From Pseudanabaena galeata CCNP1313 (GTDB lineage Bacteria > Cyanobacteriota > Cyanobacteriia > Pseudanabaenales > Pseudanabaenaceae), in the NCBI RefSeq assembly GCF_029910235.1, contig NZ_CP112874.1:2108001-2172000 (forward strand): DNA of 64,000 nt. Reading direction: 5' to 3'. Numbering within the stretch: the stretch's first letter is position 1; the number at the start of each line of letters is the position of its first letter. This document shows positions 36,539 to 64,000 of this stretch, one piece after another. A program made the translations under genes and the position numbers. The notes beneath the pieces were generated by a model. It saw only the letters and a program-made list of their open reading frames with translations, ran no database searches and was not told the DNA's origin.

Positions 36539-36600
36539 CTCATAGCGCAAATCGCTGTGATACCAAAACACAAAATGGCTATGTCATTTTGTGTTTTTAA

Positions 36601-36710
36601 CGTCAGTTCGACGAAAGCTAAAAATGGTAAGAATCGCTAGGCGATTCTTACCATTTTTCGCCAATTGCGTCGTGCGAAGCACGACGCAATTGGCTATATC
36701 GAACTCACGT
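36601..36710 (+). mobile_element. miniature element B, copy 1 (110 bp)
   Basis: Inverted ends CGTCAGTTCGA and CGTGAGTTCGA (read inward) enclose two hairpins: AAAAATGGTAAGAATCGC (36620) and GCCAATTGCGTCGTGC (36660). A 9-bp direct repeat TGTTTTTAA flanks it. It has no coding capacity, so movement would need a transposase in trans. Confidence 0.87.
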
Positions 36711-36767
36711 TGTTTTTAAAACCTTTACTAGATTTAGTTTTCAATTTACAAGAGTGTCGTCACACTC

Positions 36768-36898
36768 AGCAATTCTCATTATGAAACCGATTTTGGTATT
36801 TCCAGCGCCGAAGGCGCTGGAAATACCAAAATCGGTTTTTTGAAAGTCCGCCAACGGCGGACTTTCAAAAAACCGATTTTTATAATGATAATTGCTGT
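36768..36898 (+). mobile_element. miniature element C, copy 1 (131 bp)
   Basis: Ends are AGCAATTCTCATTATGAAA and TATAATGATAATTGCTGT, imperfect inverted repeats. Inside are a 25-bp-arm hairpin (from 36784) and a TTTTTTGAAAGTCCGCC hairpin. It has the same length and layout as copy 2 at 62680. No flanking duplication remains here. Confidence 0.83.
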
Positions 36899-52778: not shown

Positions 52779-54077
52779 CTTAGTGGTGCAGAAAAGTCTG
52801 AGAAAGGTTGCTAGGCATAGAGTCTCAAAATGAGACAAGAGGGATAAAAGGGACAAGAGATGAGATACTCAAGTTCCTCAACAAAAGATCTTATCCATGC
52901 CCCACCTATATCTTCAGCTACAACAACAATTGCGTCAATGGATCAAGCCAAAAGATAAGCGACATCTCCAAGGATTTGCGGAGTCTGTAGCTGCGATATT
53001 GCAATCAGGAAGTGCGAGTCTGAGTCATTGGTTGCCCTATTTAAGCCATCGAGAGTGCCAAGCCAGAAGTCAGATGGAAAGACTAAGCTACTTTGTGCAT
53101 AATCCACATATCATCGCCGAGACATTCTATAACCCATTGGTGAAGCACTTTCTCCAAGCATTTGCAGGAGCATCGTTGGAACTAGCTCTCGATACGAGTA
53201 TGCTGTGGGATAAATTCTGTCTGATCGAAATATGCTTGATTTGGGGTGGAAGGTCGATTACTTTAGCGCAAGTGGTATTAGAGCATGGAAGCGCTACTGT
53301 TGGCTTTGAGCATTACCGTCCCGTATTAGAACAAGTACTCACCCTATTGCCGCCAGAAAGCAAAGTGACCTTACTTGCCGACCGAGGCTTTGAACATGGG
53401 GAATTAATCCGATGGTTACAGCAAAATCAATGGTCTTGGGCATTTCGCGCAAAGTCCGATCTGCTAGTGACTTTGCCGACAGGTACAACCAAGCGCGTCG
53501 AACAACTGATACCTCCCACAGAGCAAGCTTATCTAGTTCCCAATGTCACCGTACTCGGTGATGTTAATTGTCACTTAGCGACGGCTAACCTAGACATGGC
53601 TAACGGTTCATGGGCTGTCCTTACCGATATTCCCCCTTCATTACAGACTTTTGCTCTCTATGGCAAACGCTTTGGCGGTATTGAACCTCATTTTAAGGAT
53701 TACAAGTCGGCGGCTTTTAATGTGGTTAGCTCGCATCTCCGTGATGCTCAATCTCTTACCTGTTTGTTTATGCTCCTTGCCACTGCTAACCTGATTGCTG
53801 TAATTCTTGGCATAATGTTGGTGCGTTTGGGGCAAAGGGCGGCTATTGATTGGCACGATCATCGCGGCTTGAGTTTTCTGCAACTCGGTCTCCGTCAGCT
53901 TCACACCCTTCTTTACCAACAAAAACCTCTTCCTCTTTTGCAGATTTTCCCTAGAACTAATCCTCCACCTGCCTGTGCTTCTATTGCCAAACGCGAAAAG
54001 TTAGATTTTCGTATCGAATTTGCTCGTATTACCATTGTCTCATCTTGAGACTCTCCTGAGTTTTCTGCACCACTAAG
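52779..54077 (+). mobile_element. IS4-type insertion sequence, complete, 1299 bp
   Basis: Perfect 17-bp terminal inverted repeats CTTAGTGGTGCAGAAAA. A 10-bp target duplication GTCTTTGAAG flanks the element (52769-52778 and 54078-54087). One transposase gene fills it. Intact ends, intact transposase and an exact duplication indicate recent insertion and possible activity. Confidence 0.96.
52897..54048 (+). CDS. IS4 family transposase
   Basis: 383 aa, complete. DDE-type catalytic residues appear as Asp in LALDTSMLW, Asp in LLADRGFEHG and Glu in FGGIEPHFKDYKS. The fold with an N-terminal helical part (GFAESVAAILQSGSASLSHW) and the YLSHRECQARSQMERL segment agrees with IS4-type transposases. It cuts at the 17-bp ends of the surrounding element and inserts it into new sites with a 10-bp duplication. 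Confidence 0.9.
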   Translation: MPHLYLQLQQQLRQWIKPKDKRHLQGFAESVAAILQSGSASLSHWLPYLSHRECQARSQMERLSYFVHNPHIIAETFYNPLVKHFLQAFAGASLELALDTSMLWDKFCLIEICLIWGGRSITLAQVVLEHGSATVGFEHYRPVLEQVLTLLPPESKVTLLADRGFEHGELIRWLQQNQWSWAFRAKSDLLVTLPTGTTKRVEQLIPPTEQAYLVPNVTVLGDVNCHLATANLDMANGSWAVLTDIPPSLQTFALYGKRFGGIEPHFKDYKSAAFNVVSSHLRDAQSLTCLFMLLATANLIAVILGIMLVRLGQRAAIDWHDHRGLSFLQLGLRQLHTLLYQQKPLPLLQIFPRTNPPPACASIAKREKLDFRIEFARITIVSS

Positions 54078-57787: not shown

Positions 57788-57802
57788 TTTTTATCAGTAA
57801 TT

Positions 57803-57845
57803 AATTGTCATTATGAAAATCGATTCCATAATGACAATTGCTGAT
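57803..57845. repeat. element C remnant: two ends only
   Basis: AATTGTCATTATGAAAATCG and the complementary CCATAATGACAATTGCTGA stand back to back, so this is element C without its two internal hairpins. Confidence 0.7.
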
Positions 57846-61670: not shown

Positions 61671-61752
61671 ATATGAGGACATAAAACCAAAGAAGAGAAT
61701 GGTGGCGCTACGCGCCGCCATTCTCTTCTTTGGTTTTGCTTTGGCAGCTATA
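61671..61752. repeat. element D copy 3 (left end lost)
   Basis: It starts inside the element at TATGAGGACATAAAACC, carries hairpin AACCAAAGAAGAGAATGG with a GC-rich top, and ends GGCAGCTATA like copy 1. The join with the crtR terminator is seamless, so the lost left end was probably cut off by deletion. Confidence 0.76.
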
Positions 61753-62192: not shown

Positions 62193-62229
62193 AATTTTAA
62201 AAGCCTTGCTAAGCAAGGCTTTTAAAATT
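62193..62229 (-). terminator. terminator hairpin of ssb
   Basis: AATTTTAAAAGCCTTGCT pairs with its complement; it overlaps the ssb stop codon and ends in AT-rich sequence. Confidence 0.75.
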
Positions 62230-62599
62230 AAAAATCGTCGTCATAGCTGCCGCTACTATTGCTAGCTGCTTCATTATCTTTGCGAGAACCAAGTAGATCT
62301 AGACGATCAACACGAATTACAGGTTTTTGCCGCTCGTCACCTGTAGTGCGATCGTTCCAGCGATCAAATTTGAGTGATCCTGATATACCGATTAGGCTCC
62401 CTTTTTTAACAAAATTTTTGGCAACTTCAGCGGTTTTGTCCCACATTTCTAAGTCAAACCAATCGGGTGGATCATCACGGTTGCTGGTATTGCGATTAAC
62501 TGCGATCGTGAAGTTGCAGACTACTTTGCCAGACTCGAAATATTTAACTTCAGGATCACGTCCTGCACGTCCAACTAGATGAACTTTGTTTAAGGTCAT
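62228..62599 (-). CDS. ssb: single-stranded DNA-binding protein
   Basis: 123 aa OB-fold protein: NKVHLVGRAGRDPEVKYFES, NFTIAVNR, DWFDLEMWDKTAEVAKNFVK, GSLIGISGSLKFDRW. The C-terminus ends in an acidic tip (SYDDDF), the site that recruits repair and replication partners. It protects single-stranded DNA in replication and repair. It is a little shorter than E. coli SSB, as is common in cyanobacteria, which often have two versions. Confidence 0.94.
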   Translation of the reverse strand: MTLNKVHLVGRAGRDPEVKYFESGKVVCNFTIAVNRNTSNRDDPPDWFDLEMWDKTAEVAKNFVKKGSLIGISGSLKFDRWNDRTTGDERQKPVIRVDRLDLLGSRKDNEAASNSSGSYDDDF

Positions 62600-62650
62600 A
62601 GAAAAATTATCAAAAAAGATTTAGACATCTGCATTTTATAGCAAAACCCC

Positions 62651-62825
62651 AAAATAGAGGCGACACTTCGTGTCGCCTCAGCAACTCTCATTAGGAAACC
62701 AATTTTGGTGTTTCCAGCGCCGAAGGCGCTGGAAACACCAAAATTGGTTTTTTGAAAGCCCGCCAACGACGGGCTTTCAAAAAACCGATTTTCATAATGA
62801 GAATTGCTGATGTCGCCTCTATTTT
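62651..62825. repeat. old palindrome split by element C
   Basis: AAAATAGAGGCGACA...TGTCGCCT (62651-62678) is the start of a hairpin whose last part, CTATTTT, reappears after element C at 62818-62825. This shows that the hairpin existed before the element entered its right arm. Confidence 0.88.
62680..62810 (+). mobile_element. miniature element C, copy 2 (131 bp) with target duplication
   Basis: Same length and layout as copy 1. TGTCGCCTC (62671-62679) is repeated directly after the element (62811-62819), a 9-bp target duplication. The element carries a 25-bp-arm hairpin (from 62696) and the GAAAGCCCGCC hairpin, and no coding capacity. Confidence 0.9.
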
Positions 62826-62828
62826 GAG

Positions 62829-64000
62829 CTATGGATTAATTGACTCAATCCTTGCTGATAAGCCTTGTTGCGCGAGGCGAGACACTTGGACTTCAGCAAT
62901 ACGGCGATCGCTATAGGCTCCAATCTGCACTACTAAATAGCCATTCAGCCGCGAAGCAAAGGAATTCGGCACAATTTGACGTACTTGAGCAACGACATTT
63001 GGTGAAGAAACAGGCACAACCACTCGATATCGAGGTTGGTTTTGGGGTCTAAAACTGGTATTTGCTAGTGGCGCAATTAGAATTGGTTGATTGACAGGTT
63101 CACCACTAGGTGGACGCGATCGCACAGGGGGCAAACTGGTGGTAATTTCAGGGTTAGCAGGTATCGGAGAGTTAAAACTTCTAGGTGTAATTCTGACAAT
63201 CACAGAAGTAACAGGCTCATACCAGAAAGGATTGTTTGCTTGAATGCCTTGATTGGGGGTAGAAGATGTCGATCTAAACAATGCGGGTGGATTATCAAGG
63301 GGAGGCGCAAGATTCATGGGCTGACTGGCTGCAATCTGTTGTTCTAGTTGTTGGTTGATATTGGCAAAGCGATCGCTTTTGGGCGCAGTTGGTAAGGGCT
63401 TACGTACCGCCACATTTGCCGTTGTCGTATTTGTCGAAGGACTAGTAAGATTATTTGCAAATAGATTGGATGGCGGACGCACACCCGACAATTGCAAATT
63501 TCCCTTTACTCTTTTAATGTCCAATTGATTGCCAATCACAGCAACCGCATTACGGCTGACGTTTTGCAAATCGAATGTGCCATTTCCCTGAAAAGTGTTG
63601 TTACCATCATCGTTAGACTTACCCAGATCTGGCTTAGCAGTATCAGAAATGGTTACGCCATAGGCTCGATTATTGACGATCGCATTGCCGCGCAAAATTG
63701 GCTTGGCGTTAGATTGGATTAAGAGTCCATTTTGATTTTGCGTAAAGGTATTTTCCGTGATTTGTGGAGCCGCATTTTGGCGAATACTCATGCCAAAAGT
63801 AGTTTGTTGAAAGAGGTTGCCACGAATATCTGGACTGGCTTCACCCTCGATCGCTAAGCCACTAGTTCCATTGCGAAAGAACTGATTGGCAGAAATAATT
63901 GCCGTTGATTTGCCCGTAATCAAGCCGCCATCTTGCTGATTATCGATAAAAGTATTATTGGCGATCGCAGGACTCACATTTTCAATCCACAGTCCATAAC
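62829..64000 (-). CDS. beta-helix repeat protein with SPOR-like C-terminus, 5' end cut by window
   Basis: The frame stays open to the window edge, so the N-terminus is missing; the visible part has about 390 residues. The first ~175 are right-handed beta-helix turns (DUF1565-type): SPAIANNTFIDNQQDGG, ISANQFFRNGTSGLAIEGEA, ITENTFTQNQNGLLIQSNAK. A Pro/Ser-rich linker follows, and the last ~80 residues (YLVVQIGAYSDRRIAEVQVS, then RLAQQGLSARIES) resemble a SPOR peptidoglycan-binding domain. It is probably an exported, wall-associated protein; function unknown. Confidence 0.82.
   Translation of the reverse strand, partial: YGLWIENVSPAIANNTFIDNQQDGGLITGKSTAIISANQFFRNGTSGLAIEGEASPDIRGNLFQQTTFGMSIRQNAAPQITENTFTQNQNGLLIQSNAKPILRGNAIVNNRAYGVTISDTAKPDLGKSNDDGNNTFQGNGTFDLQNVSRNAVAVIGNQLDIKRVKGNLQLSGVRPPSNLFANNLTSPSTNTTTANVAVRKPLPTAPKSDRFANINQQLEQQIAASQPMNLAPPLDNPPALFRSTSSTPNQGIQANNPFWYEPVTSVIVRITPRSFNSPIPANPEITTSLPPVRSRPPSGEPVNQPILIAPLANTSFRPQNQPRYRVVVPVSSPNVVAQVRQIVPNSFASRLNGYLVVQIGAYSDRRIAEVQVSRLAQQGLSARIESINP

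Follow-up and report, generated by a model that had tools for sequence, protein, structure and literature searches.

Between an ssb-like gene and its upstream neighbor in a 5.84-Mb genome of the genus Pseudanabaena, one palindrome appears to interrupt another, which raises the question of whether a mobile element entered an older hairpin at this locus and, if so, what moved it. Within the window, the whole 64,000-nucleotide stretch of DNA analyzed, we regard it as nearly certain that the inner palindrome is a MITE, mobilized by a transposase acting on CAGCAATTCTCATTATG ends and inserted into a pre-existing hairpin of this lineage.

Structure of the element and its host hairpin

A preliminary description had placed a 131-bp element in the right arm of a palindrome, and we confirmed this, locating the element (element C; plus orientation, ends CAG...CTG) at 62679-62809. 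The host hairpin has 17-bp arms, the right one of which is split by element C: its left part (62650-62678) comprises the left arm (62650-62666), the loop (62667-62669), and bases 1-9 of the right arm (62670-62678), and the displaced rest of the right arm, CTATTTTG, lies at 62819-62826. Element C is bounded by terminal inverted repeats (62679-62695, consensus CAGCAATTCTCATTATG, and 62793-62809) that enclose two inner hairpins. Hairpin 1 (62696-62750) has 26-bp arms and a GAA loop; hairpin 2 (62740-62792) has 23-bp arms at 96%, the left one overlapping with the right arm of its neighbor. ORFs of 80 aa or more do not reach into the 131-bp element. The repeat described earlier on both sides is indeed a 9-bp target-site duplication, although its register, set from the family as a whole, had to be corrected: it reads GTGTCGCCT at 62670-62678 and ATGTCGCCT, with one mismatch, at 62810-62818, and the original TGTCGCCTC is the same repeat shifted one base rightward. 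Because element C shows 7 differences from the family consensus and its duplication contains a mismatch, the insertion is not recent.

The same MITE recurs at 36767-36897 on the plus strand (copy 1; first placed at 36768), again 131 bp long as had been claimed, with 6 differences from the consensus and flanks in which no duplication is recognizable (7 of 9 mismatches). Another MITE family, which has AACGTCAGTTCGACG-like ends and likewise contains two inner hairpins, is represented at about 36599-36711 in the window and at about 2080-2205 of locus L110; one of its copies adjoins copy 1, another sits inside a family C element, and a 310-aa IS with matching ends has many copies in this genome. 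The sequence CATTATCAAAGGTCATTGT occurs exactly at four places (G000:C1:712990, 966415, 1076117, and 1217009).

The ssb-like gene (62228-62599, minus strand) lies downstream of the host hairpin, and the upstream gene (62829-63977, minus strand) has its 3' end directly beside it; the hairpin is a putative terminator of the upstream gene. Scored in the orientation of its neighboring genes, the old hairpin is terminator-like, as is one inner hairpin of element C. A 10-bp stem of the old hairpin survives the insertion because the duplication starts right behind the loop; in addition, the left arm is able to pair with what remains of the right arm farther away. Termination may persist after the insertion.

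The empty site in relatives

With ssb as anchor, we compared the orthologous loci in 24 further genomes of the genus. In Phormidium tenue FACHB-1050 (G018; L073 = L344), CCAAAATAGAGGCGACACTTCGTGTCGCCTCTATTTTAGAGC occupies the same place, an intact hairpin without insert, and two further relatives (G020 and G015) carry an altered, element-free version of it. Neither the window's insertion nor a footprint of it is present at any of the 24 orthologous ssb loci. In Pseudanabaena sp. lw0831 (G019), the corresponding place has another hairpin, and in it lies a shorter relative of the element, apparently from a separate event. In several relatives the counterpart of the host hairpin (window 62650-62826; loci L071-L095) has another stem sequence, with both arms altered jointly.

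The empty orthologous hairpin and the element-free versions support the order of events read initially, with the hairpin first and the element second; the contrary case, with the composite in all relatives, is contradicted by these loci (0/24). It had also been stated that removing the element rebuilds the hairpin exactly; joining the flanks does so except for the one mismatch of the duplication, and the rebuilt sequence does exist in a relative.

Family size, target duplication, and short forms

End-like sites (at most 2 mismatches) number 173 in the genome compared with 5 for a reversed control pattern, which excludes chance as their source, and from the end counts we estimate about 80 copies. 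Relatives of element C occur in 24/26 genomes of the genus, and outside the genus one genome from the same taxonomic family has the exact ends; viral contigs gave no match to the terminal repeat. Exact 9-bp repeats flush with the CAG/CTG ends flank 80 of 167 candidate element-flank pairs, and 115 of the 167 have at most 2 mismatches in the 9-bp duplication, against 1.2 expected from shuffled pairing. Exact repeats of other lengths are rare among these pairs (5-7 bp, 0; 8 bp, 2; 10 bp, 5). The 9-bp target has no strong consensus.

The family consensus contains AAACCGATTTT at positions 18 and 104, 86 bp apart. A deletion between these two repeats leaves exactly 45 bp, the size of several copies that consist of ends only, some of which carry 9-bp duplications; such forms of about 45 bp have lost both inner hairpins between the direct repeats, probably by slippage between the AAACCGATTTT copies. 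The solo pair of ends noted at 57803 is real and belongs here: at 57797-57843, flanked by ATTTTTTAT and ATTTTCTAC (7 of 9, read from the sequence), it looks like an internally deleted copy, not like a separate or more ancient element.

The likely parent IS

A search for an IS with matching ends identified, in Pseudanabaena biceps O153, an end pair 1418 bp apart (CAGCAATTCTCATTATGAAA...CCATAATGAGAATTGCTG) that encloses a 435-aa ORF and is flanked on both sides by GAGATTTAT, a 9-bp duplication. This IS shares a 20-bp left end with the MITE, and the two have the ends alone in common. Genome G025 contains about ten full-length copies with transposases about 90% identical, and eight of the copies examined have exact 9-bp duplications. 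The 1418-bp IS is likely the autonomous parent of the MITE, and its transposase, or a close relative, would have moved the 131-bp copies. The mobility claimed at the outset finds support in the 9-bp duplications, present at most copies, and in an autonomous relative whose ends and duplication length are the same. In this genome, a decayed IS copy at C1:2280480-2280927 is interrupted by another hairpin repeat, and next to it a MITE has inserted. The parent survives here in no intact copy, so that the elements of this genome may or may not still move.

The 435-aa transposase scored below the Pfam cut-offs (PF01609, 17.7 bits versus 23; PF13808, 18.6 versus 32.3) and had no NCBIfam match at 0.001, and no sequence relatives of it were found in the PDB. 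Its similarity to DDE transposases is weak, below the curated cut-off for IS4 / DDE_Tnp_1 family membership. It is 46% identical over 98% of its length to WP_013335080.1, annotated as an 'ISNCY family transposase', of Gloeothece verrucosa PCC 7822; this full-length similarity to an annotated transposase places the parent in ISNCY, a label that stands for 'not classified yet'.

Another candidate parent, an IS4-type IS that encodes a 342-aa transposase, makes a 9-bp duplication, and has 8 identical copies in this genome, was rejected, as its ends (CAGAAGTGTTGAAT) differ. Located at L181 1303-2479 (G000:C1 near 25.5 kb), with the duplication GTACTGTTG and an identical transposase in all eight copies, it has probably been active recently. 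The window also contains a gene for a 383-aa transposase at 52897-54048, for which the best NCBIfam match, IS4_2, is below cut-off (107 versus 152 bits); its 394-codon frame has six further copies elsewhere in the genome.

Alternative explanations and choice of target

The strong inner hairpins and intergenic location of element C would also suit a structural repeat that is not a cut-and-paste DNA transposon, such as a palindromic one of the REP/BIME kind (RAYT-type, HUH chemistry). Such repeats are characterized by the absence of a target duplication, and the 9-bp duplications found here refute this reading; the terminal inverted repeats likewise argue against it, as does an autonomous partner that weakly resembles DDE transposases, and we give it almost no credence. 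Matches of the element in Rfam to eukaryotic microRNA families were far below gathering scores and reflect merely hairpin shape. Element C instead combines what defines a MITE: CAGCAATTCTCATTATG terminal inverted repeats, short length, no coding gene, a 9-bp target duplication, and an autonomous counterpart that matches it in ends and duplication length (L282/L294 and the G025 copies). Were the MITE to have entered the hairpin before the lineages split, the empty site in P. tenue could be the product of precise excision, which leaves an identical sequence; with the insertion and its footprint absent from all 24 loci elsewhere, this is highly improbable. Precise excision is rare for conservative transposons.

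A MITE inserted into this lineage's hairpin might have arrived there by accident or by preference. Several copies do lie in hairpin arms (e.g., L013, L025, L252, and L265), and at 17/64 in the first set, specific targeting of hairpins or terminators by the transposase looked attractive. It failed with more data: 18 of 85 independent 131-bp insertions are in hairpins (21%), versus the 16.7% of intergenic DNA that hairpins occupy (p = 0.17), and only 1 of 9 IS insertions is. Together with a 9-bp target that lacks a strong consensus, these counts make targeting unlikely; there is no significant evidence that hairpins, which are very common in the intergenic DNA of this genome, are a preferred target.

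Evolution of the inner hairpins

We compared the arms of 108 full-length copies, counting copies rather than independent events. Hairpin 1 has 124 double changes that keep the pair and 85 one-sided changes, where 17 double changes are expected if the arms vary independently; the double changes are of 36 types and affect 21 of 26 pairs. For the upper stem of hairpin 2, the counts are 32 pair-keeping double changes and 57 one-sided ones. The terminal repeats, which serve as an internal control, do not co-vary (3 double versus 160 one-sided changes). The loops occur as reverse-complement pairs (GAA 39 / TTC 38, AAC 52 / GTT 16, TAC 7 / GTA 6, and GAC 5 / GTC 5), and copies at the same site in different genomes differ by double changes and loop flips. 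A few hairpins at single-copy sites behave alike, with joint changes or flips (six hairpins compared, mostly from one locus). A unique-site hairpin at window 61683-61737 has the loop TAC, and its counterpart in a relative (L443) has GTA, a flipped loop.

On balance, we lean toward the view that in the inner hairpins one arm is often copied onto the other and loops invert in place, through template switching during replication or cruciform-type inversion; gene conversion between copies could contribute. Published template switching homogenizes the arms of inverted repeats and inverts spacers (PMC8604942, PMC8794818), and the arm and loop pattern seen in our alignments fits it: in both settings, concerted change keeps the arms alike and the spacer inverts. 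The published cases concern RNA genes and yeast coding genes, whereas the present one is a multi-copy transposon.

Discussion

Element C is almost certainly a non-autonomous DNA transposon whose transposase acts on terminal inverted repeats of the CAGCAATTCTCATTATG type and cuts target DNA with a 9-base stagger, repair of which would yield the 9-bp direct duplication. In the lineage of this genome, one copy entered the right arm of the older, terminator-like hairpin that separates ssb from its upstream neighbor, where it may have been tolerated thanks to the retained 10-bp stem and the two terminator-like hairpins that the element brought along.

A MITE of cyanobacteria, Nezha, was reportedly described by Zhou et al. 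in 2008. The element C family is new, but its kind is well known. Like other bacterial MITEs (PMC10969869), its members are short, lack an ORF, have terminal inverted repeats and target duplications, occur in many intergenic copies, and have an autonomous IS with the same ends; they differ in an interior of two long hairpins sharing one arm, in the 9-bp duplication, and in a parent transposase group that no Pfam or NCBIfam model recognizes. The SPRITE, BOX, and RUP repeats of Streptococcus pneumoniae (PMC10969869) are also small, terminator-like, and inserted in one another. They are separate elements from another phylum, set apart from family C by description rather than by sequence, and here, by contrast, an empty site documents that the hairpin was older than its insertion.

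The locus is a clean case of a palindrome inside a palindrome: besides the duplication, its empty site and its probable source transposon are known. The parent transposase group, unrecognized by current family libraries, and the evolution of the hairpins are the parts that deserve specialist attention. If arm copying and loop inversion are indeed at work, the MITE family would be a natural, replicated assay of hairpin mutation. Its copies are numerous, and some occupy the same site in more than one species, which allows selection and arm copying to be tested against each other as sources of hairpin perfection.
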